This document shows positions 2 through 26,484 of a stretch of DNA of 35,005 bases, in pieces. The notes under the pieces are model-generated. The model worked only from the letters and a program-made list of their open reading frames with translations, did no database searches and was not told the DNA's origin. Location: the IMG/VR virus record IMGVR_UViG_3300033145_001664, positions 1-35,005 of that record, one strand, 5' to 3'. Origin of the DNA: a virus. The first letter of the stretch is position 1; each line of letters opens with the position of its first letter. The translations under genes and the position numbers were made by a program.

Positions 2-2386
2 GTTCTTCAAACAAGAATGAATTTACATAAATTAAAAGAGATTAGTAAATGTGAACATTTTGATGTTGTTTTAGCTTTAAATATTATTCATCATTTTAAA
101 ACTGAAGAGGTTGCGGAAGCATGTGAAGTCTTTAGAAAACTCGGGGATAATTTGATAGTAGAAACTCCTCCATCAGACGACTATGGATCTTGCGGTCAAG
201 AGAATTTAACAGAGATCTTAGATTACTTTATTGGAAACATAAAAAGAAGAAAAGGTACGATACTTGGGGAGTTTGAACGTCACACAAGTAAAACAAATAG
301 TGCTATTGTTTGGTGTAAAACTAAAAAAGAAGAGTTGGAGTGGCCTTATTACGAATACGAAAAATTATTTGACAGAAAGGATGTAGATGTTGATAGGTTG
401 AAGAATCGAGGTGTTGATGGATCTAAATCTATAGTAGAATCAGATTTCAACTCAAAGAAATTTAGAAATCCAAGAAAGACAGAAGTATTAGATTGGATTC
501 CCGGAATTAATCTACATACCTTTATTAATTTAAATGGAATTTATCCAAATGTTTCTCATCTTATAAAGAAATTAGAAACTAGAAATATATTGGGTGATTA
601 TAAATGGGATGATTCAAATAAAGATATTATGTCTCATAATTTTATATTGAATGGAAGTAATTTACATATAATTGATTTTGATGATAATTTAATAGTAGGA
701 AGCGGTGCTCCAAATGATCAACTACAACTAGAACTAACTATCAATGAAATAAAAAAATATTATCCTTATATTGATGATAGACCTGAAGAAGAAAAAATAA
801 AGATCAATCTTGGTTGTGGTAATGATATTAAACCTGGTTATATAAATATTGATAGATATAACAACACAGGGAAAGTTGATATGAGCTGTGATATTAGTAA
901 GTTACCTTTTGACGATAAAACAGTTGACGAAATATTTACATCTCATGTGTTTGAACATATTGGTATAATGGATATGTATGGTGTCATAACTGAATGGAGA
1001 AGGGTGTTGAAAGATAATGGGGTCCTTATGTTATATTTGCCTGACCTTGAGCATGAAGTAAAAATATGGTTAAATACTTCAGACAATAAAAAGTGGTTAG
1101 ATGTACATAGAATATTTGGATCTCAAACACATCCAGGTAATACACATTTTTGTGGGTTTAATACTGGAAGTCTTAAATCATTTCTTGAGGGTTTTAATTT
1201 TCATATTGAACATATTGGCATTGGAGATAGAGGGATGGGGCATGAGATTCAATGCGTTGCTATTAAATTATCTGATGCTGTAATTATACCTGCTTCCTAT
1301 TCTTGTCATTTTGTTGGTGGCCCAATTATAGATATTCAAGGTGATGCAAATGATAAGGGTTATTATGCAGTTGATTTTCTAGATCCGGATAATGATGCGA
1401 GCGTACATCAAACAACAATGAGTATTAATACTTGGACCAGACCATTTAGAAAATACTTTACAAACTGGTTGGTTAAGGTTAGACGAAATGGAGTACCAGT
1501 ATTTGAACACAAGTTTAATTTAAAAGGAAAAAATGTTTTAATTAATTTTGATACTAGATCAATCGGAGATACATTAGCATGGATTCCTTACGCTGATTTA
1601 TTTAGGCAGAAACATGAATGTAATGTTATAGTATCAACCTTTCATAACAACTTATTTAAAGGACACCCAACATACAATCATTTAAAGTTTATTGAACCAG
1701 GAAGTAGAGAAGAGAATCTATATGCATCATATTCAGTTGGATGTTACGATGAAGACCTGAATAAGAATCTTGTTAATTGGAGAACCGTTCCACTTCAACG
1801 AGTATGTTCCGATACATTAGGATTAAAATATAACGAGATCATTCCAGACCTTGCAATTACTCCAGGTGCTAGACCAATTAAAGAAAAGTATGTAACCATT
1901 TCTGAATGGTCAACTTTTCAATGTAAGCACTGGAATTATGAAGGTGGGTGGCAACAAATTATTGATTGGTTTAATGATAATGGGTATAAGGTGATGGTTA
2001 TCTCAAAAGAAAAAACCAATTTGAAAAATATTATTGATATGACTAATCAATCCATGAAGAATACAATAACAAATATTTATAATAGTGAAATGTTTCTAGG
2101 AGTTAGTGCTGGTCCATCATGGATTGCATGGGCATTAAGAAAACCTGTTGTTATGATCTCAGGATACAGCCATGCATTTGGTGAGTTTAAAACTAACATT
2201 GAAAGAATTATAAATGAAGATGTTTGCCATGGATGCTTTAATGATCTTGATAATGTATTCGATAGAGGCGACTGGAATTGGTGTCCAAGACATAAAGGAA
2301 CTCCCAGACAGTATGAGTGTACAAAATCAATTACTCCAGAAAGAGTAATTAAATCAATAGAAAATATCATAACGAATATTATATAA
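2..2386 (+). CDS. Multidomain methyltransferase / kinase-like / TibC-like heptosyltransferase, 5' end outside window
   Basis: Probably transfers a sugar, and perhaps methyl or phosphate groups, onto phage or host glycans or proteins. The frame is open to base 2 and the first visible residues are already inside a methyltransferase fold (FDVVLALNIIHHF), so the gene starts upstream; the ATG at 17 is probably internal. Numbering from that ATG: end of a first class I methyltransferase (1-105); a kinase-like stretch (about 140-225) with D203-x4-N208 and D220-F-D222, like an APH catalytic loop; a second SAM methyltransferase with LGCGND (265-270) and NIDRY (277-281); then a C-terminal half (about 420-789) like the autotransporter O-heptosyltransferases (TibC family), with SIGDTLAWIPY (515-525) and four cysteines C737-x2-C740-x15-C756-x11-C768 like the iron-binding set. 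The heptosyltransferase assignment is strongest; the kinase-like one is tentative. It lies directly upstream of surface-protein genes. Confidence 0.75.
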   Translation, partial: VLQTRMNLHKLKEISKCEHFDVVLALNIIHHFKTEEVAEACEVFRKLGDNLIVETPPSDDYGSCGQENLTEILDYFIGNIKRRKGTILGEFERHTSKTNSAIVWCKTKKEELEWPYYEYEKLFDRKDVDVDRLKNRGVDGSKSIVESDFNSKKFRNPRKTEVLDWIPGINLHTFINLNGIYPNVSHLIKKLETRNILGDYKWDDSNKDIMSHNFILNGSNLHIIDFDDNLIVGSGAPNDQLQLELTINEIKKYYPYIDDRPEEEKIKINLGCGNDIKPGYINIDRYNNTGKVDMSCDISKLPFDDKTVDEIFTSHVFEHIGIMDMYGVITEWRRVLKDNGVLMLYLPDLEHEVKIWLNTSDNKKWLDVHRIFGSQTHPGNTHFCGFNTGSLKSFLEGFNFHIEHIGIGDRGMGHEIQCVAIKLSDAVIIPASYSCHFVGGPIIDIQGDANDKGYYAVDFLDPDNDASVHQTTMSINTWTRPFRKYFTNWLVKVRRNGVPVFEHKFNLKGKNVLINFDTRSIGDTLAWIPYADLFRQKHECNVIVSTFHNNLFKGHPTYNHLKFIEPGSREENLYASYSVGCYDEDLNKNLVNWRTVPLQRVCSDTLGLKYNEIIPDLAITPGARPIKEKYVTISEWSTFQCKHWNYEGGWQQIIDWFNDNGYKVMVISKEKTNLKNIIDMTNQSMKNTITNIYNSEMFLGVSAGPSWIAWALRKPVVMISGYSHAFGEFKTNIERIINEDVCHGCFNDLDNVFDRGDWNWCPRHKGTPRQYECTKSITPERVIKSIENIITNII

Positions 2387-2464: not shown

Positions 2465-2680
2465 ATGATAGTATATGCAAATGGCAGGGTTGTAGCAACA
2501 GATACAGATGGAGATACTCAACCCGTTGGTGTCGTTGGTACACAACAGGATACTTTAAAAGTTGCTGATGATGAATCAAGAGGTTTGTTATTCAATGTGA
2601 TACAAGAGCTGAGAATATTAAATATGCATATGACTGATATGACTGATAATGTAATAGAAAAAGAAGATGTGGAGGTATAA
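2465..2680 (+). CDS. Small virion-associated protein (unknown)
   Basis: A 71-residue protein I do not recognise by family. The start is supported by GGGAG nine bases upstream. The N-terminal half is short-strand and polar; the C-terminal half (about 35-60, LKVADDESRGLLFNVIQELR) is an amphipathic helix of the kind often seen in small phage tail or fibre components. It is the first gene after the double motif and is followed after 5 bases by the tandem paralogue array, so it is probably co-expressed with those surface proteins. A structural role is inferred from position only. Confidence 0.55.
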   Translation: MIVYANGRVVATDTDGDTQPVGVVGTQQDTLKVADDESRGLLFNVIQELRILNMHMTDMTDNVIEKEDVEV

Positions 2681-2685
2681 AGTTT

Positions 2686-3270
2686 ATGCCAGAAATGATA
2701 AGAGATGGTATAGGAAGAGGTTATTTACTTGAAATAGATAACAATCATAAAGCTCAAACCGATGCTGTCATTCAAACAGAAGAAGCATATATAGGTGATA
2801 CATATGGAGAAGCTTATGTAATGTCGACTGGAGTATTAACTACAACATCTACAAATCCTCATGCAATGATATATTTCAAAAATTTAAATCCTGATAAAAA
2901 AATGTATGTATCCGCCTTGGTTCTTGGATGGAATGGAGGGAATGTAACTGGCGAAAAATGTGCTGTGTGGGATTATGTAGCATTTCCGGGTGATCCGGTT
3001 GCTAATTACACAGTTTCAGTTGCTGGTAATTTAAATTTAACATCTTCTAAAACAGCTCTAGCTACTATAGATATATGGGACGGAGTCGGAGAAGGCATTA
3101 CACTTGCATCTTCAGGAATCGTTGCAACATCAGTGATATTCGGTAAAGGATCATCTGACCTACTCATTTCAGGCATTCCTATCATAGGATACAATGATGC
3201 AGTTGTATTACGAGTTACAACTGAAGAGGTTGGGAAGTTTACAGGGGTTTTGAGAGTTTTTTATAAGTAA
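2686..3270 (+). CDS. Tandem paralogue 1, DGxGxG-box structural protein
   Basis: First of five consecutive genes whose products begin with the box [IL]-x-D-G-x-G-x-G...x-N/H-x-x. Here it reads IRDGIGRGYLLEIDNNHKA (residues 5-23). The remaining ~170 residues are rich in Ser, Thr, Gly and Val with alternating hydrophobics, as in beta-sandwich fibre or decoration domains. No catalytic motif is visible. GGAGG lies in the 3' end of the previous gene, so translation is probably coupled. The shared box with divergent bodies suggests a common docking segment and different exposed domains; this is inference. Confidence 0.65.
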   Translation: MPEMIRDGIGRGYLLEIDNNHKAQTDAVIQTEEAYIGDTYGEAYVMSTGVLTTTSTNPHAMIYFKNLNPDKKMYVSALVLGWNGGNVTGEKCAVWDYVAFPGDPVANYTVSVAGNLNLTSSKTALATIDIWDGVGEGITLASSGIVATSVIFGKGSSDLLISGIPIIGYNDAVVLRVTTEEVGKFTGVLRVFYK

Positions 3271-3282
3271 AGGAGAGATCAA

Positions 3283-3837
3283 ATGACAGAACAAATAACT
3301 GACGGAAAGGGCACTGGTTTTTTAGCTGGAGTTAGCAGCGAAAATAGATTAATGATTGCTGGCCCCACAACTTCAAAAGAACATCATACGAATTTTGTAT
3401 ATCAAGATGCATATAATATTATTTTTTCTGTAACTCCAGACTCAACTGCTGCTTTCTTATATATTAAAAATGAATCTACTCTTCCAATTATATGTGAAGG
3501 ATTTAATATTCGTTGTGCAAGCGATGAAATAATCAGAATTGCAATAGGAGTAGTTGGCACGCCCGTTGGCGGTTCTGATATAGTTCCTGCTAATTTATAT
3601 GCGGGAAGTGCTAAAAGAGCTATAGGTACTTTTCAACAAGGTACTGCTATTACAGGGATAACTAATGGGACTATAATTGGGAATTATTATATAGCAGGAA
3701 GTAATGATAGTAAGTTTATTAATTTTGATGCTGATATTATTATACCACAAAATCAATCAATGATATTTACAGCATTAACAGGCTCTATATCTATAAGTGG
3801 ATTTTTAGTTATGTGGCATGACCATGGAGGAGGATAA
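3283..3837 (+). CDS. Tandem paralogue 2, DGxGxG-box structural protein
   Basis: Product of 184 residues starting MTEQITDGKGTGFLAGVSS followed by ENRL, the best match to the shared box together with paralogue 3. The body is beta-rich, with a stretch (about 55-75: AAFLYIKNESTLPIICEGF) that aligns in position with IYFKNLNPDKKMYVSALVL of paralogue 1 and ILHITNTDPEKDLTVSYMR of paralogue 3, so the similarity reaches beyond the box. An AAGGAGAGATCAA leader precedes the ATG. Probable virion surface or fibre component; exact role unknown. Confidence 0.65.
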   Translation: MTEQITDGKGTGFLAGVSSENRLMIAGPTTSKEHHTNFVYQDAYNIIFSVTPDSTAAFLYIKNESTLPIICEGFNIRCASDEIIRIAIGVVGTPVGGSDIVPANLYAGSAKRAIGTFQQGTAITGITNGTIIGNYYIAGSNDSKFINFDADIIIPQNQSMIFTALTGSISISGFLVMWHDHGGG

Positions 3838-3840
3838 CTA

Positions 3841-4419
3841 ATGGCTTTTCAACTTGAAGATGGAACAGGCACAGGAAACAGGGCAACTGTAGATAATGAA
3901 AATCGGTTATTAACTACAGCGATTGCTCATGAACTTCAGCATCACATATCGTTTTATAATGGCCAGGTATATCAAGTTATAGGAGACTATAATCTTACTA
4001 GCTCTGGAACCAAAACAATATTACACATTACCAATACTGATCCTGAAAAAGATCTAACTGTATCATATATGCGTATTCAATATCCAGATAACACTTCTGT
4101 AATAGATATAGACACTTATTTTCAATTGGGTTTTGGAAGAGAATATGTCTCTAATGGATCTATTGTTACTCCAGTTAATATGAATAATACATCTGGAAAT
4201 GATGCAGTGGTTGAATGTCATGATAGTAATCCAATATTGTCTGGGTCATTTGCTGAAATAGATCGTTGGTATTGTGATAAATCAATGATGACTTTTAATA
4301 AGCATGGTTCGTTAGTTTTAGGATTGGGCGACTCACTGGAATGGCGTTTAGTAACCGATCAAACTTCTGGACTTGCATATGTTCGAGTTACAATGATGAT
4401 GATGGATAAACCTTTATAG
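3841..4419 (+). CDS. Tandem paralogue 3, DGxGxG-box structural protein
   Basis: Product of 192 residues starting MAFQLEDGTGTGNRATVDN then ENRL. Only 3 bases separate it from paralogue 2; its GGAGGA site lies inside the end of that gene. The region after the box contains ELQHHISFYNGQVYQV, which corresponds to ESEQNGNAYVWTTT in paralogue 4 and EEAYIGDTYGEAYVM in paralogue 1: each has 'NG/YG-x-x-Y' before the first predicted strand. No enzyme motif is seen. Likely a fibre or decoration protein. Confidence 0.65.
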   Translation: MAFQLEDGTGTGNRATVDNENRLLTTAIAHELQHHISFYNGQVYQVIGDYNLTSSGTKTILHITNTDPEKDLTVSYMRIQYPDNTSVIDIDTYFQLGFGREYVSNGSIVTPVNMNNTSGNDAVVECHDSNPILSGSFAEIDRWYCDKSMMTFNKHGSLVLGLGDSLEWRLVTDQTSGLAYVRVTMMMMDKPL

Positions 4420-4441
4420 ATATATTAGCGGAGGATAGACA

Positions 4442-4987
4442 ATGGGGTTTCAAATAGAAGATGGAACAGGTAGGGGACATAGAGTACAAGTAACAAATAA
4501 AAATATGTTACGCACATATTCTACTACTAAGACTGAAGTTGCATATGAATCAGAACAGAATGGTAATGCATATGTATGGACTACTACACAGAATTGGGGT
4601 GCTGATAAAAATATAATTTGGCTACGAAACGATTCAGCCAGTTATGATTTACATATAGAACGAATTGTTATTTCTTGTCCTGCTGCTTGTATGGTACAGA
4701 TTTTTGTTGGCGAGGGAAGTACAGTAGGAGGAGTTGAAGTTATAGGTACAAACTTGAATCGTGGTAGTGGGAATCAGGCAAATGTTACCTGTAGGCATAC
4801 TAATACTAATGTTGATGGCGGAACTGGTATGACACTATTAGGGACTATGTATGCACCTCCAACGTCAATGGCTGGCATTTCATTTATTGGTGCATTAAGA
4901 CTCACTCTCAATACCGAAGTTGCAGTAAATTTTATTACAGATGTTGATTTATCTTCTGTAAATATAATGGGTTACTTTCATAGGTAG
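4442..4987 (+). CDS. Tandem paralogue 4, DGxGxG-box structural protein
   Basis: Product of 181 residues starting MGFQIEDGTGRGHRVQVTN, nearly the same first eight residues as paralogue 3 (MAFQLEDG), then diverging. It contains an IIWLRNDSASYDLHIERIV stretch (about 60-78) matching the 'x-x-x-I-x-N-x-(S/T/D)' strand of the other paralogues. A strong GCGGAGGAT site precedes the ATG at a good distance. The pair 3/4 looks like the most recent duplication. Probable virion surface protein. Confidence 0.65.
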   Translation: MGFQIEDGTGRGHRVQVTNKNMLRTYSTTKTEVAYESEQNGNAYVWTTTQNWGADKNIIWLRNDSASYDLHIERIVISCPAACMVQIFVGEGSTVGGVEVIGTNLNRGSGNQANVTCRHTNTNVDGGTGMTLLGTMYAPPTSMAGISFIGALRLTLNTEVAVNFITDVDLSSVNIMGYFHR

Positions 4988-4995
4988 AGGTTAAT

Positions 4996-6063
4996 ATGAT
5001 AAAGACAAATATCACTGACGGAACTAGAAATCAATATAAAGCAGAAGTAACAGCCGAGCATGCTTTAAAGGTTTCTACTGTTGAATATAACGTTATGAAT
5101 CATGATGTTAAATTTTTTCAGCATCCTTTATACGGTGTTGATATGAATAGAAATTTTAGTGATACTCCTGCTGAGATTATACATAATGGTACTGATTCTT
5201 CTGCGTGGACAGCTACACAAATAATCGGCACAAGTATGGTATTTGATGATACAAACAATCCCGATACAGGATCTAAGAATATATCTATTACAAACAGTAA
5301 CAACGGTGATATTGCATTATTTGATAGAGGTTCAGATATAACTATTACTAACGAAGTTGCACTTCAAGGGCGGATATATATTACATCTTTGGCTGATGCT
5401 GGTGCTAATGTTAAGTTCGTTGCATCAGACGGTCTGGTTAAAATTGGTAAAGAGAAGAAAGTATTTGACTATATTGATAAGAATATACTTGGAGTTTATC
5501 AAACATTTAATATACCAATTGCTGATCTTGAGATACAGGGGTCAACATTTGATGGTCTCCAAATGAAACTTGACAAGAACGGTTCATATATTGATTTGGA
5601 TAACATTAAGTTTACAGAAGCTGGTGTTGCGATTGGAACAACAACATTTGAATTGGTTCCTGACAAAGGAACAGACTTATATATAGATGGTTTTATACTC
5701 AATATGGCAGATGCTTATGCTGGTACAGTGGCGGATGGAACAATGCCTAGTTTGAGATATGATGGATTTCTTGGAGAAGCTGCATTATCCAGTCCTATAA
5801 TTTATCAAGTTCATGATAATGAAGATATTACACTTGTAACTACTTTTAGCCAACTTATAGATTTCATGCAATTTGGGTCACCAGAGATTAGAGCAACTGG
5901 TTCGGATGGCGTAAATTCATGGTTTACATTATATATTGCATTAAAAGCTCCTAGAGTATTACAGTCTGCCTTAAATCAAAAGCTAACCTTCATACTAAGT
6001 TCTAATTTAGCTGGTTTACTTTTCTTTAGATTTAGTGTTGATTGTCGTGTATTAATTGTATAA
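4996..6063 (+). CDS. Tandem paralogue 5 (longer), structural protein
   Basis: Longest member (355 residues). The N-terminal box is degenerate: NITDGTRNQYKAEVTAEHAL (5-24), with DG and the following A-x-V kept but the second G-x-G lost. It is followed by an insertion of about 150 residues (roughly 45-205) absent from the shorter paralogues, reading like a beta-sandwich carbohydrate-binding or Ig-type domain (SSAWTATQIIGTSMVFDD... to YIDLDNIKFTEAG). From about residue 210 it returns to the fibre-like body, ending VLIV. The insertion may be a receptor- or glycan-binding module; this is a guess from composition. Confidence 0.6.
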   Translation: MIKTNITDGTRNQYKAEVTAEHALKVSTVEYNVMNHDVKFFQHPLYGVDMNRNFSDTPAEIIHNGTDSSAWTATQIIGTSMVFDDTNNPDTGSKNISITNSNNGDIALFDRGSDITITNEVALQGRIYITSLADAGANVKFVASDGLVKIGKEKKVFDYIDKNILGVYQTFNIPIADLEIQGSTFDGLQMKLDKNGSYIDLDNIKFTEAGVAIGTTTFELVPDKGTDLYIDGFILNMADAYAGTVADGTMPSLRYDGFLGEAALSSPIIYQVHDNEDITLVTTFSQLIDFMQFGSPEIRATGSDGVNSWFTLYIALKAPRVLQSALNQKLTFILSSNLAGLLFFRFSVDCRVLIV

Positions 6064-6085: not shown

Positions 6086-6604
6086 GTGGTCGTTAATAAA
6101 GGCGAAGATATTGGGTTAACACTTCAGTTGGTCAAAAGTGATGGCCAATCTATAGAAGAAGATGCAACGGTATCTTACCAAATATTTGACTCAAGTGTGA
6201 CAGTAGAATATGTTTCTGGTTCGGCTACATTTAATATTACATCACAATCATATATTGCTACTATTGTTCCAAGTGTATCATGGATAGGTCAAGAAGTTGG
6301 GTCTTATGTTATTGTATGGAGTGTATCTAATACCGATGATGACTTTGCTCCAATTTATACAGAGGATTTACAAATAAGTATAGATAAGACTCAGATAGAT
6401 AAAATTCTTGGACTTGTTCATCAAAATATATTAATTGACCAAACAGTATATGATGAGTTTGGAAATCTAGATAATGCGAGATTGAGAATATATTCAGATT
6501 CAGCATCAGTTGGAACCACTAGTAATGTATTAGCAACATATCAGATAACATCAGAAAGTACAGAGTGTGGGCAATTTACTACATGGAAACAAGTTGAAGT
6601 ATAA
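6086..6604 (+). CDS. Ig-like virion protein, GTG start
   Basis: 172 residues, started at GTG because TGGAGGA lies 9-10 bases upstream and no in-frame ATG follows near the N-terminus. Residues 1-100 alternate strands as in an Ig-like beta-sandwich (SDGQSIEEDATVSYQIFDSS). Residues ~105-172 contain KILGLVHQNILIDQTVYDE and an RLRIYSD segment, a pattern I associate with small phage tail or fibre proteins, but I cannot name a family. It ends the surface-protein array and is followed by a motif copy that probably begins the next unit. Confidence 0.55.
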   Translation: MVVNKGEDIGLTLQLVKSDGQSIEEDATVSYQIFDSSVTVEYVSGSATFNITSQSYIATIVPSVSWIGQEVGSYVIVWSVSNTDDDFAPIYTEDLQISIDKTQIDKILGLVHQNILIDQTVYDEFGNLDNARLRIYSDSASVGTTSNVLATYQITSESTECGQFTTWKQVEV

Positions 6605-7743: not shown

Positions 7744-7754
7744 GGAGAGGGTTG

Positions 7755-8342
7755 ATGCCAGTATCATTTTATGTAGAAAGTTCAACCCCGCCTGTTGAAA
7801 ATCTTGAGTGGAATGAGAATTACAAAGATTCAGATATTCATCTTTATGAGGGTAACCTTAGAGCAGAACTCTGGACGGGTGCTGGAACTTTTAGTAGTGT
7901 GTTAGCTCTACCTGGAAAATCTTCTGGTAAATGGTTTGTTGAGTTAGAGGCTGCTGATATTGGTAATAGTTGTCAGATTGGATTGGCAAATAGTTTGTCT
8001 GTCGATCTTAATACATATTGTGGACTCGGCAATGATAGTTGGGGATGTGCAGCAACAAACGGAAGGGTTTACCATGACGGTGGTGATCCCGCTTATATCC
8101 CAGGTGGTTGGGATGCGTCAGATACTCCAATTGGGTTGGCTGTTGATGTAGACGCTGGTAAATTTTGGATTTCTAAAGATGGTGTATGGACAGGAGATCC
8201 AGTTGCTGGAACAGGTGAGGGCGCAAGCGGCTTGACAGGAACTTTATATCTTATGATTTCTTTTTACGCAATCGGACAGGAGTTGACAATTAATACTACA
8301 CCAACATATTCAGCACCTTCTGGTTATAGTAACTGGGCGTAG
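7755..8342 (+). CDS. SPRY-domain virion protein 1
   Basis: 195 residues. I chose the ATG at 7755 over the TTG three bases earlier because AAGGAGAGG is better spaced. The N-terminus (MPVSFYVESSTPPVENLEW) is a short lead, followed by a SPRY/B30.2-type beta-sandwich: GKWFVELEA, IGLANS, NGRVYHDG, IGLAVDVDAGKFWISKDGVW, then LTGTLYLMISFYAIGQELTIN. SPRY domains are protein-binding folds; in phages they sit on tail or fibre proteins. Its close relative follows at 8401, indicating tandem duplication. Confidence 0.75.
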   Translation: MPVSFYVESSTPPVENLEWNENYKDSDIHLYEGNLRAELWTGAGTFSSVLALPGKSSGKWFVELEAADIGNSCQIGLANSLSVDLNTYCGLGNDSWGCAATNGRVYHDGGDPAYIPGGWDASDTPIGLAVDVDAGKFWISKDGVWTGDPVAGTGEGASGLTGTLYLMISFYAIGQELTINTTPTYSAPSGYSNWA

Positions 8343-8400
8343 CTGAAATCCGGGTGGAACAAATTTTGTAGGGTTGTTTAACTAATAGGGGTAATGAATA

Positions 8401-9021
8401 ATGAAAAAAATATCATTTTATGTAAGGAAAACGCCAACACCACCAAGCGATCCATGGGAATTTGATCCATTGAATACTAATAGTGGTGTTCTCTTAACCA
8501 ATGATAATCTCACAATGTCTAATGTTACTACAGGTGCTACAAATCGAACTTCTATTTGTAACAAGTCTGTAACTACAGGTAAGTGGTATTGGGAAGTACA
8601 TATAGATGCTATTCACGTCACTTCTGATTTAATGACAATTGGAATATGTCATCCTGATGCTGATTTTACAAAAGATACAAGAGTTGGATGGAATGAAAGT
8701 TGGGCGTGGATGGGAAACAATAGATTTTACCATGATGGTTCTTATACATCTATTTTAGTTCATACTTTAAATGATATAATTGGTATGGCATTAGATGCAG
8801 ATGCTGGAAAAATATGGTTTGCAAAAAATAATGTATGGGTACAATCGGGAGATCCAGCTGCCGGAACAAACCCTCGGTGGGATGATGCTACTATACTTAA
8901 TTACCCTATTTATCCATGTTGTGATTTAAGATATACTGATGATCAATTAACAATTAGATTTTCAGCTGCACATCAAACTTATTCACCACCATCAGGATTT
9001 CTTCCAATACAAAATTATTAG
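8401..9021 (+). CDS. SPRY-domain virion protein 2
   Basis: 206 residues, a paralogue of the previous gene. It shares the lead SFYV-x3-(T/P)-P-P and the SPRY signature GKWYWEVHIDA, IGICHPDAD, NNRFYHDGS, IGMALDADAGKIWFAKNNVW, DQLTIRFSA, ending PPSGFLPIQNY, which parallels APSGYSNWA at the end of paralogue 1. The bodies differ enough to suggest different partners. ATAGGGG lies upstream of the ATG. Likely a virion surface or fibre component. Confidence 0.75.
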   Translation: MKKISFYVRKTPTPPSDPWEFDPLNTNSGVLLTNDNLTMSNVTTGATNRTSICNKSVTTGKWYWEVHIDAIHVTSDLMTIGICHPDADFTKDTRVGWNESWAWMGNNRFYHDGSYTSILVHTLNDIIGMALDADAGKIWFAKNNVWVQSGDPAAGTNPRWDDATILNYPIYPCCDLRYTDDQLTIRFSAAHQTYSPPSGFLPIQNY

Positions 9022-17367: not shown

Positions 17368-19317
17368 ATGGCAAATGTATCTCCAGGTGTTTACACCAAA
17401 ATTATCGACCTGTCTCAATTCGTGCAAGCTGTACCATCAACAATTGGTTTTATTGCTGCATTAACAGAGAAGGGAGAAGACAACAAACTTAGATTTATAG
17501 GATCCCGAGCAGATTTTATTTCAGAATTTGGGGAACCAAACATTTCAACTTATGGGAAGAATTATGGACAAGGTCCTTATTGTTCTTATAACTACCTTGG
17601 TGAATCTGGCGCTCTTTATTTCATGAGAGTAATGTCAGATAATGCCGCGTTTGCAAACATGAGAATTGATGCAACTATAGGCGCTACTGATACGACTGCA
17701 GGTTATTCAATTACATTTGTAGAAGGTATGAATACTACAACTGAATTTGGTACTAACTTAGCACAATCAGGAACTACATATCCAATTGCTTTCTTGAGAC
17801 CAATTGGTCGTGGTCAATGGTACAACAAGTTGGGGGTTAGAATTACTGAAGTATCAAACCCAACATTGTGGGATCAATATATCATGGATGTTTATGAAAG
17901 ACAATCAGATGGTCAAGATGTTATTATTGAATCATTTGAAATTTCATTCGATCCTCAAGCAAGAGATAATGCAGGTGAATCATTATGGATTGTTGATGTC
18001 CTTGAACTTTATTCATCAGTGCTTCGTGCAGAGATGTTTATAAGTGAATCACTTGGAACATATTCTGCTGGTTATGAAGAAAATATTCGTGTTTATGACA
18101 AGGATATTGGAACAGTAACTGTTGTAGAAACAGGTGGAGCAGCAACAATTTCAGATAACAAACAGGACTTTAGCGATTGGGAATCAGCTGCTGGTCCTGC
18201 TGAATATGTTGTAACTGTAAAAGACGCAAAAGGAAATGAACTATGGGGTTGGTTAGGAGCTGCAGGTGGAACAGATGACGAACTGTGTGCAGTTTATGAA
18301 GACAGAATGTTGACTAGTCAATCATGGAATGGTAGTACTACAAGTTTTGATCCTACTACAGAAGTAGATTATAGAATAAAAAAATCATATGGTTCTGTTG
18401 CTACCGCTTTTACATCATCTGAACCTGTACCATTAAGAAAGGGATCAGAAGGCGATCTTTTACAAGCTGATGGTTCATTAGATACTGCTGAAGCAACACT
18501 GCTTCTAAATCAAGCATACTCAGGTATTATTGATGATACAGTTCTTGACAATGAAAATACTTACTTCTCAATGGTATTTGATTGTGGATATCCATCTGAT
18601 GTTAAAACAGCAATCAGTACTTTATGTCAAACAAGACGTGACTGTGTCGGTATTCTTGACAATGGTGATAATGCTACTGTTACATTAGCACTCGCAGCAA
18701 GAAACGACACTAACACATTTAATAATTACTTTGTTGCACTTTACGAAGAATATAATAAAGTGTATGATTCATTTACAGGACAAGATATGTGGATTTCACC
18801 AGTATATCATATGTCCTACATTCTGCCAAGAAACGATACTGTTGCTGAACTTTGGTTTGCAGCAGCTGGTTTCAACAGAGCAGCAATTGATACAATTAAA
18901 GATTTGAGATTCAATCCAAGACTTGGTGAGAGAGATCAAATGTACTTGAAGCAATTAAATCCGATTGTGAAATTCAATCCTGGATATGTTGTTTGGGGTC
19001 AGCTGACTTCTCAAGCAAAAGCAAGCGCTTTACAAGACTTGAACATTGTTCGACTTGTACTTTATATCAAGAGAGCATTTGAGGACTTTTGTAAGTTCTT
19101 CATCTTTGAACAGAATGATGAAATTACATGGTCACTTGTTGCAGGTCAACTTGTAGAATTTCTTGAAGTTATCAGAAAGAAACGTGGTCTTTACAACTAC
19201 TCAGTAGAAGTAGGGGCAACTGATTATGAAAGAAAAACCAAGAAATTCCATGTTAATGTAACTCTTGAACCTACTAGGGCTGTAGAGCAGATACAACTTA
19301 ACTTTTTTATAGTTTAA
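17368..19317 (+). CDS. Contractile tail sheath protein
   Basis: 649 residues, close to the T4 gp18 length. It polymerises around the tail tube and contracts on infection. The N-terminus has the sheath signature VSPGVYTKIIDLSQF (4-18) and STIGFIAALTEKGEDN (25-40). The C-terminal sheath domain includes LRFNPRLGERDQMYLKQLNP (about 512-531), LVLYIKRAFEDFCKFFIFEQ (566-585) and ends TLEPTRAVEQIQLNFFIV, the usual C-terminal strand that links subunits. GGAGGAGTACGAG is a strong ribosome site. It is normally next to the tube gene; here a homing endonuclease and a minus-strand operon lie between them. Confidence 0.93.
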   Translation: MANVSPGVYTKIIDLSQFVQAVPSTIGFIAALTEKGEDNKLRFIGSRADFISEFGEPNISTYGKNYGQGPYCSYNYLGESGALYFMRVMSDNAAFANMRIDATIGATDTTAGYSITFVEGMNTTTEFGTNLAQSGTTYPIAFLRPIGRGQWYNKLGVRITEVSNPTLWDQYIMDVYERQSDGQDVIIESFEISFDPQARDNAGESLWIVDVLELYSSVLRAEMFISESLGTYSAGYEENIRVYDKDIGTVTVVETGGAATISDNKQDFSDWESAAGPAEYVVTVKDAKGNELWGWLGAAGGTDDELCAVYEDRMLTSQSWNGSTTSFDPTTEVDYRIKKSYGSVATAFTSSEPVPLRKGSEGDLLQADGSLDTAEATLLLNQAYSGIIDDTVLDNENTYFSMVFDCGYPSDVKTAISTLCQTRRDCVGILDNGDNATVTLALAARNDTNTFNNYFVALYEEYNKVYDSFTGQDMWISPVYHMSYILPRNDTVAELWFAAAGFNRAAIDTIKDLRFNPRLGERDQMYLKQLNPIVKFNPGYVVWGQLTSQAKASALQDLNIVRLVLYIKRAFEDFCKFFIFEQNDEITWSLVAGQLVEFLEVIRKKRGLYNYSVEVGATDYERKTKKFHVNVTLEPTRAVEQIQLNFFIV

Positions 19318-19424: not shown

Positions 19425-20384
19425 GTGCGAAAAAATTCTGAAATATGTTTAATTTGTGGTAAAACTAATTTTAAAAATGCTAACAGTTTTACTAAACATT
19501 TGAGAGTTCATAAAATATCTACTAAAAATTATTATTTATTTTATATTGATCATAATGCAGGTATTTGTAAAGTCTGTGAAAAAGAAGTAAAATTTCATAA
19601 TATTGATAATGGATTTCCTAACCTTTGTAGGGTTTGTAATAATAAAAGAAATCCAAAAAGAATACAAAAAATAAAAGAAACTAATATAAGAAAGTATGGA
19701 GTTGAGAATGTCTCTCAAGTAGAAGAATTTAAAGAAAAGAGAAAACAAACAAATCTAAAAAGATTTGGAGTTGAGTATTCTCATCAAAATCCAGATATTA
19801 TGAAAAAATGTTTAGATACGTGGAGTAAAAAATATGAAGGAGGACATCCAGGAAGAGACCCACAAGTAAAAGAAAAGAAAAAGAAAACATGGCAAGAAAA
19901 ATATGGAGTTGATCATGTTTTTCAAAAAGGTCCAATCCGAGAAAAACGAGATAAAACATGTAAAGAAAAATTTGGGAGTAAATATCCAATGTGTAATTTA
20001 CAAGTTCGAAAGAAATTTGAAAAAAGCATGATTGAACAATATGGAGAAAAACATGCTTTACTAGTCCTAGAAATAGTAGAAAAAGTTTCTGGAGAAAATC
20101 ACTATAATTGGTTAGAGGATAGAGAGCAACGATTTGCTCCATACACAGAAAAATTTTTTGATGGAGATTTTCGTGAGCAAATTAGAAAAGAACAAAAAAA
20201 TATTAACCCTATGTCAGGTGACACGTTAGAAGAAAGTGCTCACCTTCATCATATAGATTATGATAAAACAAATGATAGTAGAGAAAATTTAATCTTTTTA
20301 AATCAGAGTAATCATTTTAAAACAAATACTAATCGAGAACATTGGAAAGAACTTTTGAAACAAATTAATCAATTATATATTTAA
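19425..20384 (+). CDS. HNH homing endonuclease with zinc finger and repeat region
   Basis: 319 residues, GTG start chosen by the AAGGAGG 9 bases upstream. A free-standing mobile DNA endonuclease. N-terminus: a C2H2-like finger C8-x2-C11-x13-H25-x3-H29 and a second pair set CKVC (48-51) / CRVC (68-71). Residues ~89-220: about five tandem copies of a roughly 23-residue repeat with cores RKYGVENVSQ, KRFGVEYSHQ, EKYGVDHVFQ, EKFGSKYPM and EQYGEKHALL, the DNA-binding repeat common in such enzymes. C-terminus: HNH motif HLHHIDYDK (273-281), N283, ENLIFL and NHF (296-298). The usual CxxC before the HNH is missing. Codon use is more A-rich than the sheath gene, fitting independent acquisition. Confidence 0.85.
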   Translation: MRKNSEICLICGKTNFKNANSFTKHLRVHKISTKNYYLFYIDHNAGICKVCEKEVKFHNIDNGFPNLCRVCNNKRNPKRIQKIKETNIRKYGVENVSQVEEFKEKRKQTNLKRFGVEYSHQNPDIMKKCLDTWSKKYEGGHPGRDPQVKEKKKKTWQEKYGVDHVFQKGPIREKRDKTCKEKFGSKYPMCNLQVRKKFEKSMIEQYGEKHALLVLEIVEKVSGENHYNWLEDREQRFAPYTEKFFDGDFREQIRKEQKNINPMSGDTLEESAHLHHIDYDKTNDSRENLIFLNQSNHFKTNTNREHWKELLKQINQLYI

Positions 20385-20433: not shown

Positions 20434-21144
20434 TTATATCTTTTCTATATTGGTAAAATGAAATATAAATTCAGGGGATATCATACTTCCATATTCAGTT
20501 AAACTACCTTCTTCAATAGAATCTAGTTTGTTTGTAGAAGATTTTTCAAAATATCCGCTAAAATATATTACATCATCATCGTTCATCTCTGCTATTGTCA
20601 TATACAATGCATTTCCGTTTTTAATAAGTGTGTTTGAAAACATATCTGATATCGTATTATTCCATGTTTTTATTTTTATATTTGTATTTGGAATTATGAT
20701 TGATAGATATGCATGACCTTCGCCAGTTGTTGCCATTTCTTCAATAATACCAACCCAATTTGAAACATTTCTAAATGCTCTTGTTTCTATACCTCGTTGT
20801 TTTCTAGCCTTTGATTTTAAAAGATCATTTTCAGCTTGTTGATATTGATTGGAATAGTTTTCAACTATTTCAATAAAGTTATTTTGATCTATAGGGTTTT
20901 CTATTTGAGATTGGTTTCGAATTTCTGACTGTAACATTGATTCATAGCTTTTAATATCTGATGAAGTATCACCACCTCCAAGAGCTATAATTAGAGTCAC
21001 TACTAACCATCCAAAACCAAAAATCCTAGAAATACTGCTATGCCCTTTTCGAAGAAGAAACCATGAAAATATTAGTGGTATAAATAAAATACCAAACCCC
21101 AACAAAACACTTACCTTACGATTTTCATTTATTATTTCTGTCAT
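20434..21144 (-). CDS. Two-TM membrane protein, accessory cassette
   Basis: 236 residues, last gene of the minus-strand operon. Two N-terminal membrane helices (about 11-31, VSVLLGFGILFIPLIFSWFL; 41-56), then a charged coiled coil (60-115) and a soluble beta domain (about 125-236) with NWVGIIEEMATTGEGHAYLS (129-148), YFSGYFEKSS and SLTEYGSMISPEFIFHFT. The helix pair and C-terminal segment resemble uncharacterised bacterial membrane proteins I recall, suggesting a host-derived gene. AAAGGAG lies well placed before the ATG, 17 bases after the preceding gene. Possibly envelope-directed; function unknown. Confidence 0.6.
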   Translation of the reverse strand: MTEIINENRKVSVLLGFGILFIPLIFSWFLLRKGHSSISRIFGFGWLVVTLIIALGGGDTSSDIKSYESMLQSEIRNQSQIENPIDQNNFIEIVENYSNQYQQAENDLLKSKARKQRGIETRAFRNVSNWVGIIEEMATTGEGHAYLSIIIPNTNIKIKTWNNTISDMFSNTLIKNGNALYMTIAEMNDDDVIYFSGYFEKSSTNKLDSIEEGSLTEYGSMISPEFIFHFTNIEKI

Positions 21145-21161
21145 TTTTAACTCCTTTTATT

Positions 21162-21677
21162 TTAGTGTTTGCTAATTCTGATGTATGGCAATCCTCCCCA
21201 GTCATTGTTTGCTTCAAGTTCATAAAAGAGTTCACCCCCCTCATCACCGTATTCAAAAAAGTATGCATAAGTCCCCTCATATTTTAACATAAGATCCAAC
21301 GCAACAGTTAAGTGATGTTGATCTCTTTTAAGCTCTTGTTCTTTATACATTTGCATATACCAAATACGAGTATCATATAGTTCTTTTACAGTGATATTAT
21401 TCTTTTTACAAAATTCTTCTGGATTGTCCTCATCAAAATAATAATCACCCATAGTATATCCATCACTCAATTTATTTATAAAACTTTGCATTATAGTTTT
21501 GGAAGTTTTGTTAACTATCATTGGAGTCTTACCTTCTGCATCGCTATAGATAGTTTTAGCAAAAATATCCTTTTTAATATACTTTGACACATCTTCTAAC
21601 CTTTTAATTTCATGTGGCCAAAATACAATAAATGAAGTTGAGCTAGAATTTGTTACAAAATCAAATTTGAATCTCAT
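21162..21677 (-). CDS. VTNSSS-box protein 2
   Basis: 171 residues beginning MRFKFDFVTNSSSTSFIV, the same box as the protein before it. The body (19-171) is unrelated in sequence to that partner: a basic helical part, an acidic segment (GYTMGDYYFDEDNPEEF) and a C-terminal stretch YFFEYGDEGGELFYELEAN then DWGGLPYIRISKH. I remember similar N- and C-terminal patterns in uncharacterised bacterial proteins but no function. Its ATG overlaps the previous stop by four bases (ATGA), so translation is coupled. Candidate substrate or partner of the radical SAM enzyme two genes upstream; inference. Confidence 0.7.
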   Translation of the reverse strand: MRFKFDFVTNSSSTSFIVFWPHEIKRLEDVSKYIKKDIFAKTIYSDAEGKTPMIVNKTSKTIMQSFINKLSDGYTMGDYYFDEDNPEEFCKKNNITVKELYDTRIWYMQMYKEQELKRDQHHLTVALDLMLKYEGTYAYFFEYGDEGGELFYELEANNDWGGLPYIRISKH

Positions 21678-22060
21678 CTATTTTCCCAACAGTCTTGAAT
21701 ATGTCCGACTGTAACGTCAGCGGATAATGCGTATTTGATTTTTGTTGCAACTCTTTCTTTAAAATCTGCTAGAGTTTCATTATCATGCATTTTGCTATAT
21801 GGCAAGCCAATCATCAAGCCACCATCGCCATAATCATCATAAGGACCAGATGAAGTTTGAAGGTCTGTACCTTGAATCAATATATCAATACATTCTTCCA
21901 TCTCACTTTTAGCTTCATCGAGAGATATAGGTTCTTCGGGATATTTTTTATTGATTTTTTCTAGGAGTTTAATAGTAATAACATCTTTTCCTAAATATGC
22001 CCCCATTACTATAAATGATGAAGAGCTTGAATTTGTTACGTGATCTAATTTGAATTTCAT
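21674..22060 (-). CDS. VTNSSS-box protein 1
   Basis: 128 residues beginning MKFKLDHVTNSSSSSFIV. I chose the ATG at 22060 rather than the one at 22093, because AAGGAGAAGTAAT lies just before it, starting right after the radical SAM stop, and because the box then starts at Met1 exactly as in protein 2. The body is acidic, with GPYDDYGDGGLMIGLPYSKM (about 73-92) and a helix FKERVATKIKYAL. Twelve bases separate it from the radical SAM gene. A modified or processed N-terminus is a possible role of the box; not established. Confidence 0.7.
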   Translation of the reverse strand: MKFKLDHVTNSSSSSFIVMGAYLGKDVITIKLLEKINKKYPEEPISLDEAKSEMEECIDILIQGTDLQTSSGPYDDYGDGGLMIGLPYSKMHDNETLADFKERVATKIKYALSADVTVGHIQDCWENR

Positions 22061-22071
22061 ATTACTTCTCC

Positions 22072-23058
22072 TTATAATCCTAATGGGCAACAATCTCTTT
22101 TATTGTCCAGTATTGTTCTGAATTTTTCGAACGGTTCTGCATTAACCCATATTTTATGTAAACTATCTTCAATTGGAATACTCCAATTTGATTCGTCTGC
22201 AAAACTGCAAGGCATAAACTTCATATCCGGAGTTATATATGCTGACATTCTTGCTGCCTCACATGTATCAAGAGCTGCTTTTTGTAGTCTTGATGCTTTT
22301 CCATATCTCATTACATGATTTACAAGACAGCTATCCATTCCAATTTTGAATTTAGATTTAGGAGTGAATGTCACAGAAGCAAAATCTTTTAGTTGACCTG
22401 TAGTTGGAACCCAATCAATCCTTTTTCCAGCACCTTGAGGTTTAAATAAAAGAAAAATTACAGCATTTAAACTAGATATATCAAAATCCCATATACCAGG
22501 ATTTCGCCCTTGAACTATATTGAAACATTTATCAAAACTTTCCTTTGAGAATATTTGATGAATGTTTGTTTTGACTCCGCCTTTGATTAATCTGTCAATA
22601 GCTTCGTATGTATATGGTTGTTCATAATCTGAAACTGCAACAGCACCACACATTTTTGATATTTCAATTTGTTCATCAGTTATATCAATTCCGCTTGTTG
22701 TATAGTTTGGCACAACATTTTTCGATCTGCAATATTCGACTATTTCTTTGAAGTTCTCATGATGATTTGGATCGCCCCTGCCTCCGAGTGCAACCTGATT
22801 AACATGATAGAACGTTTCATCAATAATCTTTTTGAAGTCTGACAGCGGCATATTAAGGCGATCAGTATGTCCCTGATAACAGAATGTACATTTATGCTTG
22901 CAAGTGCCCATGACACCAATATCGAGCAGAGACGCCATTTGCATAACGAATGGGTCATCATGTCCATTGATCCCTCTTGTTACTTCAAGTCCAGTAGTGG
23001 TATTAAATAGAATTTCATATTTATCATTCTTAAATGATTTGTCAAATTTTAAAATCAT
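22072..23058 (-). CDS. Radical SAM protein with SPASM-like C-terminus
   Basis: 328 residues. It has the radical SAM cluster motif C53-x3-C57-x2-C60 (MGTCKHKCTFCYQG), a GGxGDP motif (92-97) for SAM binding, and late cysteines C244, C266, C284, C323 and C324 in a SPASM/twitch arrangement (CEAARMSAYITPDMKFMPCS; ending RDCCPLGL) expected to hold an auxiliary Fe-S cluster. SPASM enzymes usually modify ribosomal peptides or proteins. Translationally coupled to the gene before it (ATGA overlap) and closely followed by two proteins with an identical Ser-rich N-terminal box, which are plausible substrates. It may also be an anaerobic enzyme-activating protein. Radical SAM call is firm; substrate unknown. 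Confidence 0.88.
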   Translation of the reverse strand: MILKFDKSFKNDKYEILFNTTTGLEVTRGINGHDDPFVMQMASLLDIGVMGTCKHKCTFCYQGHTDRLNMPLSDFKKIIDETFYHVNQVALGGRGDPNHHENFKEIVEYCRSKNVVPNYTTSGIDITDEQIEISKMCGAVAVSDYEQPYTYEAIDRLIKGGVKTNIHQIFSKESFDKCFNIVQGRNPGIWDFDISSLNAVIFLLFKPQGAGKRIDWVPTTGQLKDFASVTFTPKSKFKIGMDSCLVNHVMRYGKASRLQKAALDTCEAARMSAYITPDMKFMPCSFADESNWSIPIEDSLHKIWVNAEPFEKFRTILDNKRDCCPLGL

Positions 23059-23441
23059 AACTGCTTTAGTTCCTCACTTTCCTGGTTATCGGTTATTGGT
23101 TTTAATTCGTCTTCCTGTTCTTGTACAACCACTTCTACTTCTTCTGGTTCTTCAATAGTAGTTTCTGTCTCTGCAACTTCAACATCTTCTTGAACTTGCT
23201 CCATTGCATCTTCTACATTAACCTTGACTTTATTAACTATATCTGATAAGTTATCTTTTATATTGTTGAAGTTTTCTAATATTGTCTCTTCAACTGTTAT
23301 TTGTTCCTCAGCTACAATGTCATCTTGAGAAACAATTTCGATATTTGTGTCGCTATCATCACTATCGCCAAACCACATGAAACATAGAAACCCCCAAAAA
23401 ATAATTGACCCCAACCCAATTCCACCCGATTTACTTGCCAT
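23055..23441 (-). CDS. Single-TM acidic membrane protein, first gene of the minus operon
   Basis: 128 residues. A glycine-rich start and one membrane helix (about 8-25, IGLGSIIFWGFLCFMWFG) lead to a highly acidic, coiled-coil-like tail (28-128) full of Glu, Asp and Val repeats. GGAGG ten bases before the ATG is strong. It is the first gene of the minus-strand operon and overlaps the radical SAM start by four bases. It might anchor the system to the membrane; no family recognised. Confidence 0.55.
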   Translation of the reverse strand: MASKSGGIGLGSIIFWGFLCFMWFGDSDDSDTNIEIVSQDDIVAEEQITVEETILENFNNIKDNLSDIVNKVKVNVEDAMEQVQEDVEVAETETTIEEPEEVEVVVQEQEDELKPITDNQESEELKQL

Positions 23442-24129: not shown

Positions 24130-24864
24130 ATGGGTATGAAATATTCATTTGCCGAATTAGGACAAAACATTTTAACTAGAAAGTTCGGCGGGACTACAGT
24201 TGGTGTTGCTGATCCTTATGTATCAGGATATCATTTTGTATGGTTTGATAAAATTCCACCAGGGTTATCTGCATATATTGCTAGTAATGGCATTAGTGGA
24301 ATATCATCAGCTGGTGAAGTACAAAACATATTAGCAGCATCATGCTTGTCTGTAACACCTCCAGGCGGTACTCTAAATAAAATAGAGTACACTGGGCTTG
24401 GTGGAGTTAAATGGGCAGTACCAGGAAATATTGATTACGGTAACACCGTATCTGTCAAATTTCTTGAGTTTAACAAAACACCTGTTCTTGACATTATGCA
24501 CAATTGGGTAAAGTTAATTAGAGATTACAGAACCGGAGCTACTGATTTGATAGATGGCGATCAGGGTGAAGGTTACACAAAAGCTACATATGCTGGATTG
24601 ATGTATTATTGGACAACAGCTCCAGATGCACAAACAGTCGAATACTATGCAGCATACGATGGAGTTTTTCCATCTAAGGATCCACAAGATCTTTTTACAA
24701 GTGATGTGGAAACCGTCGGTAGAATTGATTTAGAGATTGAGTTTAATGTTGATTACGCATGGCATGAACCATGGGTATTGCAAAAATGTCAAGCGTTTGC
24801 AAAAACCTTTTCTCAAGTTAAAGATACTGTTAAAAATTACGGTCAAAGACAGTCATCAGGTTAA
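24130..24864 (+). CDS. Tail tube protein
   Basis: 244 residues. It carries features of large-myovirus tube proteins: YHFVWFDKIPPGL (about 37-49), NKIEYTGLGGVKWAVPGNID (84-103), VSVKFLEFNKTPVLDIMHNW (108-127), YWTTAPDAQTVEYYAAYDG (161-179) and a late IDLEIEFNVDYAWHEPWV (198-215). It forms the inner tube of the contractile tail. AACTAGGAGGACACTAAC is a strong ribosome site. Sheath-tube order is conserved with other myoviruses apart from the inserted genes. A stable hairpin follows 16 bases after its stop. Confidence 0.82.
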   Translation: MGMKYSFAELGQNILTRKFGGTTVGVADPYVSGYHFVWFDKIPPGLSAYIASNGISGISSAGEVQNILAASCLSVTPPGGTLNKIEYTGLGGVKWAVPGNIDYGNTVSVKFLEFNKTPVLDIMHNWVKLIRDYRTGATDLIDGDQGEGYTKATYAGLMYYWTTAPDAQTVEYYAAYDGVFPSKDPQDLFTSDVETVGRIDLEIEFNVDYAWHEPWVLQKCQAFAKTFSQVKDTVKNYGQRQSSG

Positions 24865-25692: not shown

Positions 25693-26484
25693 ATGACGTT
25701 TACAGGGTTCGATGTGCAATATCCCGAATACGAGGTTATTACACCGCAGACAAAACTATCATTTACATTAAGATCACTTAATGTTAGTGAGGAAGAAAAT
25801 TTAAAAGGGAGTTTGGTCACTCCTACAAAGATTGCTGACCATTTGAATGCTTGCATCTTTCAATCGTTAGTTAAAAAACCAGAAGGTATTTCAACACTTG
25901 ATGATTTTTTAAGAAGAACAACATTGAAAGATCGTGATGCTCTTTTATATGGCCTTTATCATATCACATATGAAGAGATAAGAAATTACAAAGTTACATG
26001 TTCAGAATGTAGTACAGATTATGAAGTATCTGTTCAAGCATCGAGTACATTTAATTTTAATGCTTATCCAGGTGAGGATATCACAAAAGATAAAGCAACA
26101 TTTGAGTTACCTGTAACAAAGGGAGTTTTTGTTACTCTTATACAGCCAACTCTATTTGATGAAATGACAGGGATTAAAACTCTTGGTTCAAGACCAGGAG
26201 CAACCCTTGAATTAATAACAGAAACTCTAATCATTGAAAAGTTTGAGCAAGACATTACTGAGAAAAAAGAAAAGATTGTTTATGATGATAGAATTGATGT
26301 TATTGATGCTTATATGACTCTTCCCGCTAAGGACAAGAGAGAAATATTTAAACATTATGCAGACAAGTTTGGTCAGTATGGTGTTGATTTAAAAATGAAG
26401 AGTAACTGCAATAGTTGTGGGCATGAAGATCTTCATACTATAGATTTGGTGGAAAGCTTTTTTCGTTCATTGTACTCAGCATAA
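25693..26484 (+). CDS. T4 gp26-like baseplate hub assembly / tail-assembly chaperone
   Basis: 263 residues. The order tube - this gene - gp25 - baseplate J suggests the T4 gp26-like baseplate protein family, thought to assist hub/tail assembly. Visible features: VITPQTKLSFTLRSLNVSEE (15-34), a helical segment (DDFLRRTTLKDRDALLYGLY, 70-89), and a split zinc ribbon C103-x2-C106 ... C239-x2-C242. It ends ESFFRSLYSA. At its end, T6 (26458-26463) leads to a +1 frame that stays open for 73 more codons, so a longer fusion may be made (separate entry). AAAGGAGATCAAAGAT precedes the ATG. Confidence 0.65.
   Translation: MTFTGFDVQYPEYEVITPQTKLSFTLRSLNVSEEENLKGSLVTPTKIADHLNACIFQSLVKKPEGISTLDDFLRRTTLKDRDALLYGLYHITYEEIRNYKVTCSECSTDYEVSVQASSTFNFNAYPGEDITKDKATFELPVTKGVFVTLIQPTLFDEMTGIKTLGSRPGATLELITETLIIEKFEQDITEKKEKIVYDDRIDVIDAYMTLPAKDKREIFKHYADKFGQYGVDLKMKSNCNSCGHEDLHTIDLVESFFRSLYSA

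Follow-up and report, generated by a model that had tools for sequence, protein, structure and literature searches.

A thumbless TibC-type glycosyltransferase module fused to other sugar enzymes in phages, with the phages' own fibre proteins as candidate targets

A multidomain enzyme at the edge of a phage tail module

The window, meaning the whole 35,005-nt stretch of DNA analysed and the whole of its record, begins inside a gene. Frame 2-2386 on the plus strand is open without a stop over 794 aa but incomplete, its 5' end having been cut off. The features that matter here are as follows.

2..2386 (+), multi-domain glycosyltransferase/methyltransferase ORF, 794 aa, 5'-truncated by the contig edge
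2..316 (+; aa 1-105), weak candidate for the C-terminal end of a class I SAM methyltransferase (PF08242, E=0.011)
314..787 (+; aa 105-262), stretch resembling a kinase in its letters D-x4-N (aa 208-213) and DFD (aa 225-227)
785..1279 (+; aa 262-426), class I SAM-dependent methyltransferase domain (PF08241, fold match)
1289..2383 (+; aa 430-794), TibC-like module: N-terminal beta domain, GT-B core and iron finger (TIGR04414, 4rap, fold)
1559..1591 (+; aa 520-530), SIGDTLAWIPY motif; D523 aligns with the TibC catalytic base D110
2063..2065 (+), T688, replacing TibC R286 (adenine contact) in the alignment
2225..2320 (+), predicted iron-finger cysteines C742, C745, C761 and C773, spacing 2-15-11
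2465..2680 (+), small ORF of 71 aa between the enzyme and the array
2686..6063 (+), array of five proteins with a DG-rich N-terminal motif, candidate virion surface proteins; the first four are mutual homologues
7752..9021 (+), two homologous tandem SPRY-domain proteins, candidate fibre/receptor-binding proteins (PF00622, E=4.8e-5 and 3.6e-13; phrog_10080, phrog_19943)
17368-19317, tail sheath
24130-24864, tail tube
25693-26484, baseplate hub
29018-31498, baseplate wedge

The sheath, tube and baseplate genes downstream point to a fragment of a contractile-tailed phage, with the enzyme at the edge of its tail module. A preliminary description of this DNA placed the enzyme directly upstream of a tandem array of surface-like proteins, which is correct apart from the intervening 71-aa ORF. 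The array proteins match no PHROG or Pfam family and contain 9-22% Ser+Thr without a Gly-X-Y repeat, hence no special acceptor signature. On the downstream side of the enzyme gene, the side that the contig covers, the neighbours are phage tail and virion-type proteins and no autotransporter substrate is seen. Further along, a homing-endonuclease-like ORF (19425-20384, +) directly follows the tail sheath gene, and a minus-strand cassette of five ORFs (20434-23441) splits the structural module between tail sheath and tail tube. One of the five encodes a radical SAM protein whose C-terminus is SPASM-like (22072-23058; PF04055, 1.4e-7; phrog_7293).

Domain make-up of the fusion ORF

The preliminary description divided the N-terminal half of the ORF into two methyltransferase domains and a kinase-like stretch. 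The second methyltransferase is borne out by a PF08241 match above the cut-off (E=1.5e-12, aa 273-343) and by a Rossmann-like fold over aa 262-426 (Z 11.6 to 3sm3). The first is weak, being at most a remnant at aa 1-105, where the N-terminus is cut off, the model is of low confidence, and PF08242 scores 16.9 bits against a cut-off of 30. The D-x4-N and DFD letters do occur at aa 208-227, but the stretch around them (aa 105-262) has no Pfam, NCBIfam or PDB match and only low-confidence models, and the kinase assignment is unproven. The fold search gave no kinase match either, though it covered mainly residues 262-424 and 505-794 and is therefore uninformative for this stretch. Taken together, aa 1-262 fold poorly alone and have no homologue among the phage records searched and the loci fetched.

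A TibC-type module with a conserved active site and iron finger

TibC-type enzymes have been described as bacterial virulence enzymes, decorating adhesins and functional only as rings of 12 subunits. The TibC-type pattern claimed for the C-terminal half, with SIGDTLAWIPY and four regularly spaced cysteines, was confirmed: aa 453-789 score 287.3 bits against TIGR04414 (autotransporter strand-loop-strand O-heptosyltransferase; cut-off 200), and the TibC crystal sequence (PDB 4rap) matches the ORF with E=7e-53. Structure prediction, which the preliminary description proposed as a check for a GT-B fold, found that fold in the 5'-truncated protein. Specifically, the AlphaFold model has pLDDT values mostly around 88-98 across aa 431-794 and superimposes on the TibC structure with Z 39.2 and an rmsd of 1.9 over 353 residues, the N-terminal beta domain included, while GT9 heptosyltransferases are matched at Z of about 18-21.

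Residue roles in TibC have been assigned to a catalytic base, Asp110, and to the donor-site residues Thr226, Lys230 and Trp305 (Yao et al. 2014, PMC4358343). The last three correspond in the alignment to T638, K642 and W707 of the window ORF, and its C742/C745/C761/C773 align with TibC C339/C342/C358/C370. The iron finger formed by these cysteines is described for the TibC/AAH family of protein-modifying enzymes (PMC4358343), and its retention argues for a protein acceptor over LPS; metal binding by the window enzyme is predicted. At position 300 of TibC, which governs heptose stereoselectivity (PMC4358343), the ORF has Ser, as does AAH.

This conservation extends to the relatives described below. 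The residues D110, T226, K230 and W305 and all four cysteines are kept in 57/57 of the phage and MAG domains first aligned, the window included. The same active-site and iron-finger residues are present in about 120 of 122 domains of a wider set, in which added sequences were placed without opening new columns. Fold, catalytic residues and metal site lend good support to the reading of the protein as a TibC-like O-glycosylating enzyme; the kinase part of that reading is unsupported.

Loss of the thumb and of Arg286

Two features of TibC are missing. A beta-hairpin thumb links TibC dimers into the active dodecamer, and Arg286 contacts the adenine of the ADP-sugar and is needed for activity (PMC4358343). 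The thumb hairpin is deleted from the window ORF just upstream of T688. The segment equivalent to TibC 256-286 measures 31 residues in 9/9 classical members and 20-27 in nearly all phage-type copies. Position 286 is R in all 9 classical members; among 122 phage-type domains it is T in 73 and R in 7. Because the hairpin is missing, a dodecamer of the known kind probably cannot form in phage-type copies, and because Arg286 is replaced by Thr, the use of an ADP-sugar by the window enzyme is uncertain.

Thumbless sequences also cluster apart from classical ones, with two MAG copies branching earliest among them, and classical members score 484-650 bits against TIGR04414, phage-type copies 223-333 bits. 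On sequence grounds we place the enzyme, as a putative member, in a phage subfamily of TibC-type proteins that lacks the thumb, and do not class it as an autotransporter heptosyltransferase, because the profile score and active-site residues of the family are present while the thumb, Arg286 and an autotransporter partner are not.

In Gram-negative hosts, ADP-heptose of the host, from LPS biosynthesis, would serve as donor. Most of the phages with a TibC module had no ADP-heptose synthesis genes when these were searched for, and good matches came from two huge phages only: a GmhA equivalog above the cut-off in LR756504 (L088 6084-6653) and an HldE-kinase-like protein below it in LR756501 (L087 7196-8182). 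These matches are too few to serve as proof of an ADP-heptose donor.

Relatives and fusion architectures in phages

A scan of viral sequences with an alignment of the TibC domain recovered 336 relatives, of which 80 were kept, whereas scans of viral contigs with one protein query (the whole ORF, aa 1-262 or aa 255-443) found none. At least 120 distinct phage-type modules are now recognized, and nearly all copies are fused to GT4, GT2, FkbM, sugar-binding GT or SAM-methyltransferase modules. The module is mostly C-terminal, in proteins of 700-1470 aa among the relatives from the viral scan; fusions overall span 700-2265 aa. Exceptions to this order include L044 and L050, in which the TibC module is N-terminal; the L044 ORF (9902-12712) also holds an FkbM methyltransferase and another domain of GT9 type. 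Among known phages, Microcystis phage Mel-JY01 bears the module, as do two huge metagenomic phages (636 and 735 kb).

The nearest relative, L005, encodes a GT4-GT2-methyltransferase-TibC protein of 1425 aa, whose methyltransferase module is 57% identical to the aa 262-426 domain of the window ORF and whose locus is syntenic with the window downstream. An independent scan with the GT4 module alone gave 64 distinct phage loci, and in 64/64 the ORF also encodes a TibC module, with proteins of up to 2265 aa. GT4 relatives were considered as a TibC-negative control and rejected, all 64 loci being TibC-positive. Just after the largest of these ORFs (L296, 9959-16753; 2265 aa, GT4-TibC) comes a frame of 1062 aa that contains Gly-X-Y repeats.

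Among cellular genomes, classical members are present in 7/398 genomes of one phylum. A scan of cellular genome contigs found two relatives, a number that is no measure of rarity, as the patterns were taken from phage sequences. We found no report of TibC-type enzymes in phages in the literature searched, subscription papers being largely outside the search. What is new here is a set of more than 100 distinct thumbless phage versions of TibC, fused to other sugar enzymes and found beside collagen-like fibre genes.

Linkage to Ser/Thr-rich collagen-like genes

In L005, a gene for a 1192-aa collagen-like protein of (GTSGSSG)n begins 49 bp after the enzyme gene; beyond it lie homologues of the genes at 6086, 6850 and 9033 in the window. 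More generally, a Ser/Thr-rich Gly-X-Y ORF lies within 10 kb of the enzyme in 35 of 56 distinct loci, and within 1 kb in 19. In 11 large phage records, a mean of 0.85 of the (GTSGSS)n-type repeat DNA lies no more than 10 kb from the TibC gene, against 0.18 at random (5000 permutations, p=2e-4); most of these records were drawn from ones that had matched the repeat, some are relatives of each other, and fibre genes cluster anyway. The window itself contains no collagen-like Gly-X-Y repeat, and the part of the genome beyond the contig edge may carry the acceptor.

The linkage is not universal. One phage (G021) has no Ser/Thr-rich repeat within 10 kb of its TibC gene, and three further records (G018, G025 and W03) have no match to a strict Ser/Thr Gly-X-Y pattern. 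At the other extreme, the 735-kb phage LR756501 has 275 DNA matches to this pattern, far above the other records searched. Repeats are also borne by related contigs that yielded no TibC gene: of 26 short related phage contigs, 8 have repeats and 1 a TibC gene. Record-level co-occurrence of TibC and Gly-X-Y was therefore rejected as evidence in favour of the positional test, and because repeats are common in these contigs the association may partly mirror a shared location in the tail module.

Independent support comes from the two cellular relatives (L085 and L086), which are thumbless, stand alone and lie near GSS/GTS repeat proteins (L085 1402-9158; L086 5890-9062). In a gammaproteobacterial MAG, the thumbless homologue is 0.8 kb from two short lipoprotein-like (GTSGSS)n ORFs, and in a MAG of Schekmanbacteria the homologue and a repeat protein are 5.1 kb apart. 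The resemblance to lipoproteins concerns the repeat proteins of L086. GSS/GTS repeats are absent from the flanks of about 1.5 kb at seven classical bacterial loci.

A proposed role in fibre glycosylation

From the computed features above we infer the enzymatic activity, donor, acceptor, order of steps and biological role of the fusion enzyme. We hypothesize, at a probability of roughly 0.6, that the thumbless TibC-type module O-glycosylates the phage's own tail-fibre or surface proteins and that the fused modules extend or cap the sugar. Own fibres are the best-supported target because related phages link the enzyme to collagen-like fibre genes. The C-terminal GT-B module would move a sugar to Ser/Thr of these proteins, probably heptose from host ADP-heptose or possibly a sugar from another nucleotide-sugar. 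The modules fused to it on one polypeptide (here a methyltransferase; in relatives GT4, GT2, FkbM and others) would then act in assembly-line fashion, and the decoration might protect or tune the adsorption fibres. More tentatively, and at somewhat less than even odds, these enzymes may form a widespread phage system in which one polypeptide starts, extends and methylates a glycan on Ser/Thr-rich collagen-like fibres, with a donor shifted from ADP-heptose and a rare cellular branch decorating (GTSGSS)n surface proteins. If the proposal holds, it would explain the function behind many 'FkbM methyltransferase' and 'glycosyltransferase' annotations in aquatic phages, and would provide a natural way of making protein O-glycans with a single polypeptide.

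The fusion enzyme could instead remodel a surface glycan of the host, LPS O-chain or capsule, during infection, for instance to exclude rival phages, its TibC module having been recruited to a carbohydrate acceptor. GT4, GT2 and FkbM modules typify O-antigen synthesis, and clusters of this kind have been interpreted in reviews of large phages as modifying outer polysaccharides (PMC7824862; PMC7029224). In addition, the fold is close to that of the LPS heptosyltransferases WaaC/WaaF (Z 18-20), and the thumb required for the adhesin-modifying ring is absent. However, the enzyme keeps the iron finger and the N-terminal beta domain found in TibC/AAH, which modify proteins; the enzyme genes sit within the tail module beside fibre genes; and two cellular genomes again show a homologue linked to GTS/GSS repeat proteins. 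We regard host-glycan remodelling as the main rival, but an unlikely one.

A protein acceptor other than a collagen-like fibre is less probable again. In such a case the array at 2686-6063 or the SPRY proteins would be modified and collagen-like proteins would be irrelevant in this lineage, as the array following the enzyme and the missing Gly-X-Y repeat might suggest. Yet the corresponding position in the nearest syntenic relative (L005) is occupied by a collagen-like gene, the array proteins are not Ser/Thr-rich (15-18%), and the missing part of the genome may hold the acceptor. Phage glycosyltransferases can also modify DNA (PMC12619734), and the modules might act elsewhere, in hypermodification of phage DNA, or be decaying. 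We consider either very improbable, given near-invariant active-site and metal residues in more than 100 distinct sequences, open frames and a protein-modifying family.

Comparison with known systems

The closest known system is TibC/AAH (BAHT; TIGR04414; PDB 4RAP, 4RB4), with which the window enzyme shares the GT-B core, the N-terminal beta domain, the catalytic Asp, the Thr/Lys/Trp donor-binding residues, the four-Cys iron finger of 2-15-11 spacing and a score over the family cut-off. Unlike these enzymes, it lacks the thumb hairpin, has Thr for Arg286, is fused to other enzymes, and lies in a phage tail context with no autotransporter partner seen. The GT9 LPS heptosyltransferases WaaC/WaaF share the GT-B fold and a PF01075 match, but have neither the iron finger nor the TibC N-terminal domain, and LPS is their substrate. 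A parallel in function is virion glycosylation in mycobacteriophages, where phage enzymes are reported to attach glycans to capsid and tail-tube proteins of the same phage (Freeman et al. 2023, cited in PMC12619734). The sites in that case are the C-termini of these proteins and not collagen-like fibres.

Among phages with a TibC-type fusion, Mel-JY01 is an isolate, which makes fibre glycosylation by a phage directly testable. Its WWT39291.1, annotated as 'methyltransferase FkbM', is a GT4 - methyltransferase-like - TibC fusion of 1226 aa; the annotation omits the TibC module and, unlike the window ORF, the gene is complete. A Ser/Thr-rich Gly-X-Y frame lies about 1.7 kb upstream of it. In this phage, the Gly-X-Y frame at L003 5-3052 (+) overlaps a minus-strand CDS annotated at 739-2298, and one or the other has probably been called in error.
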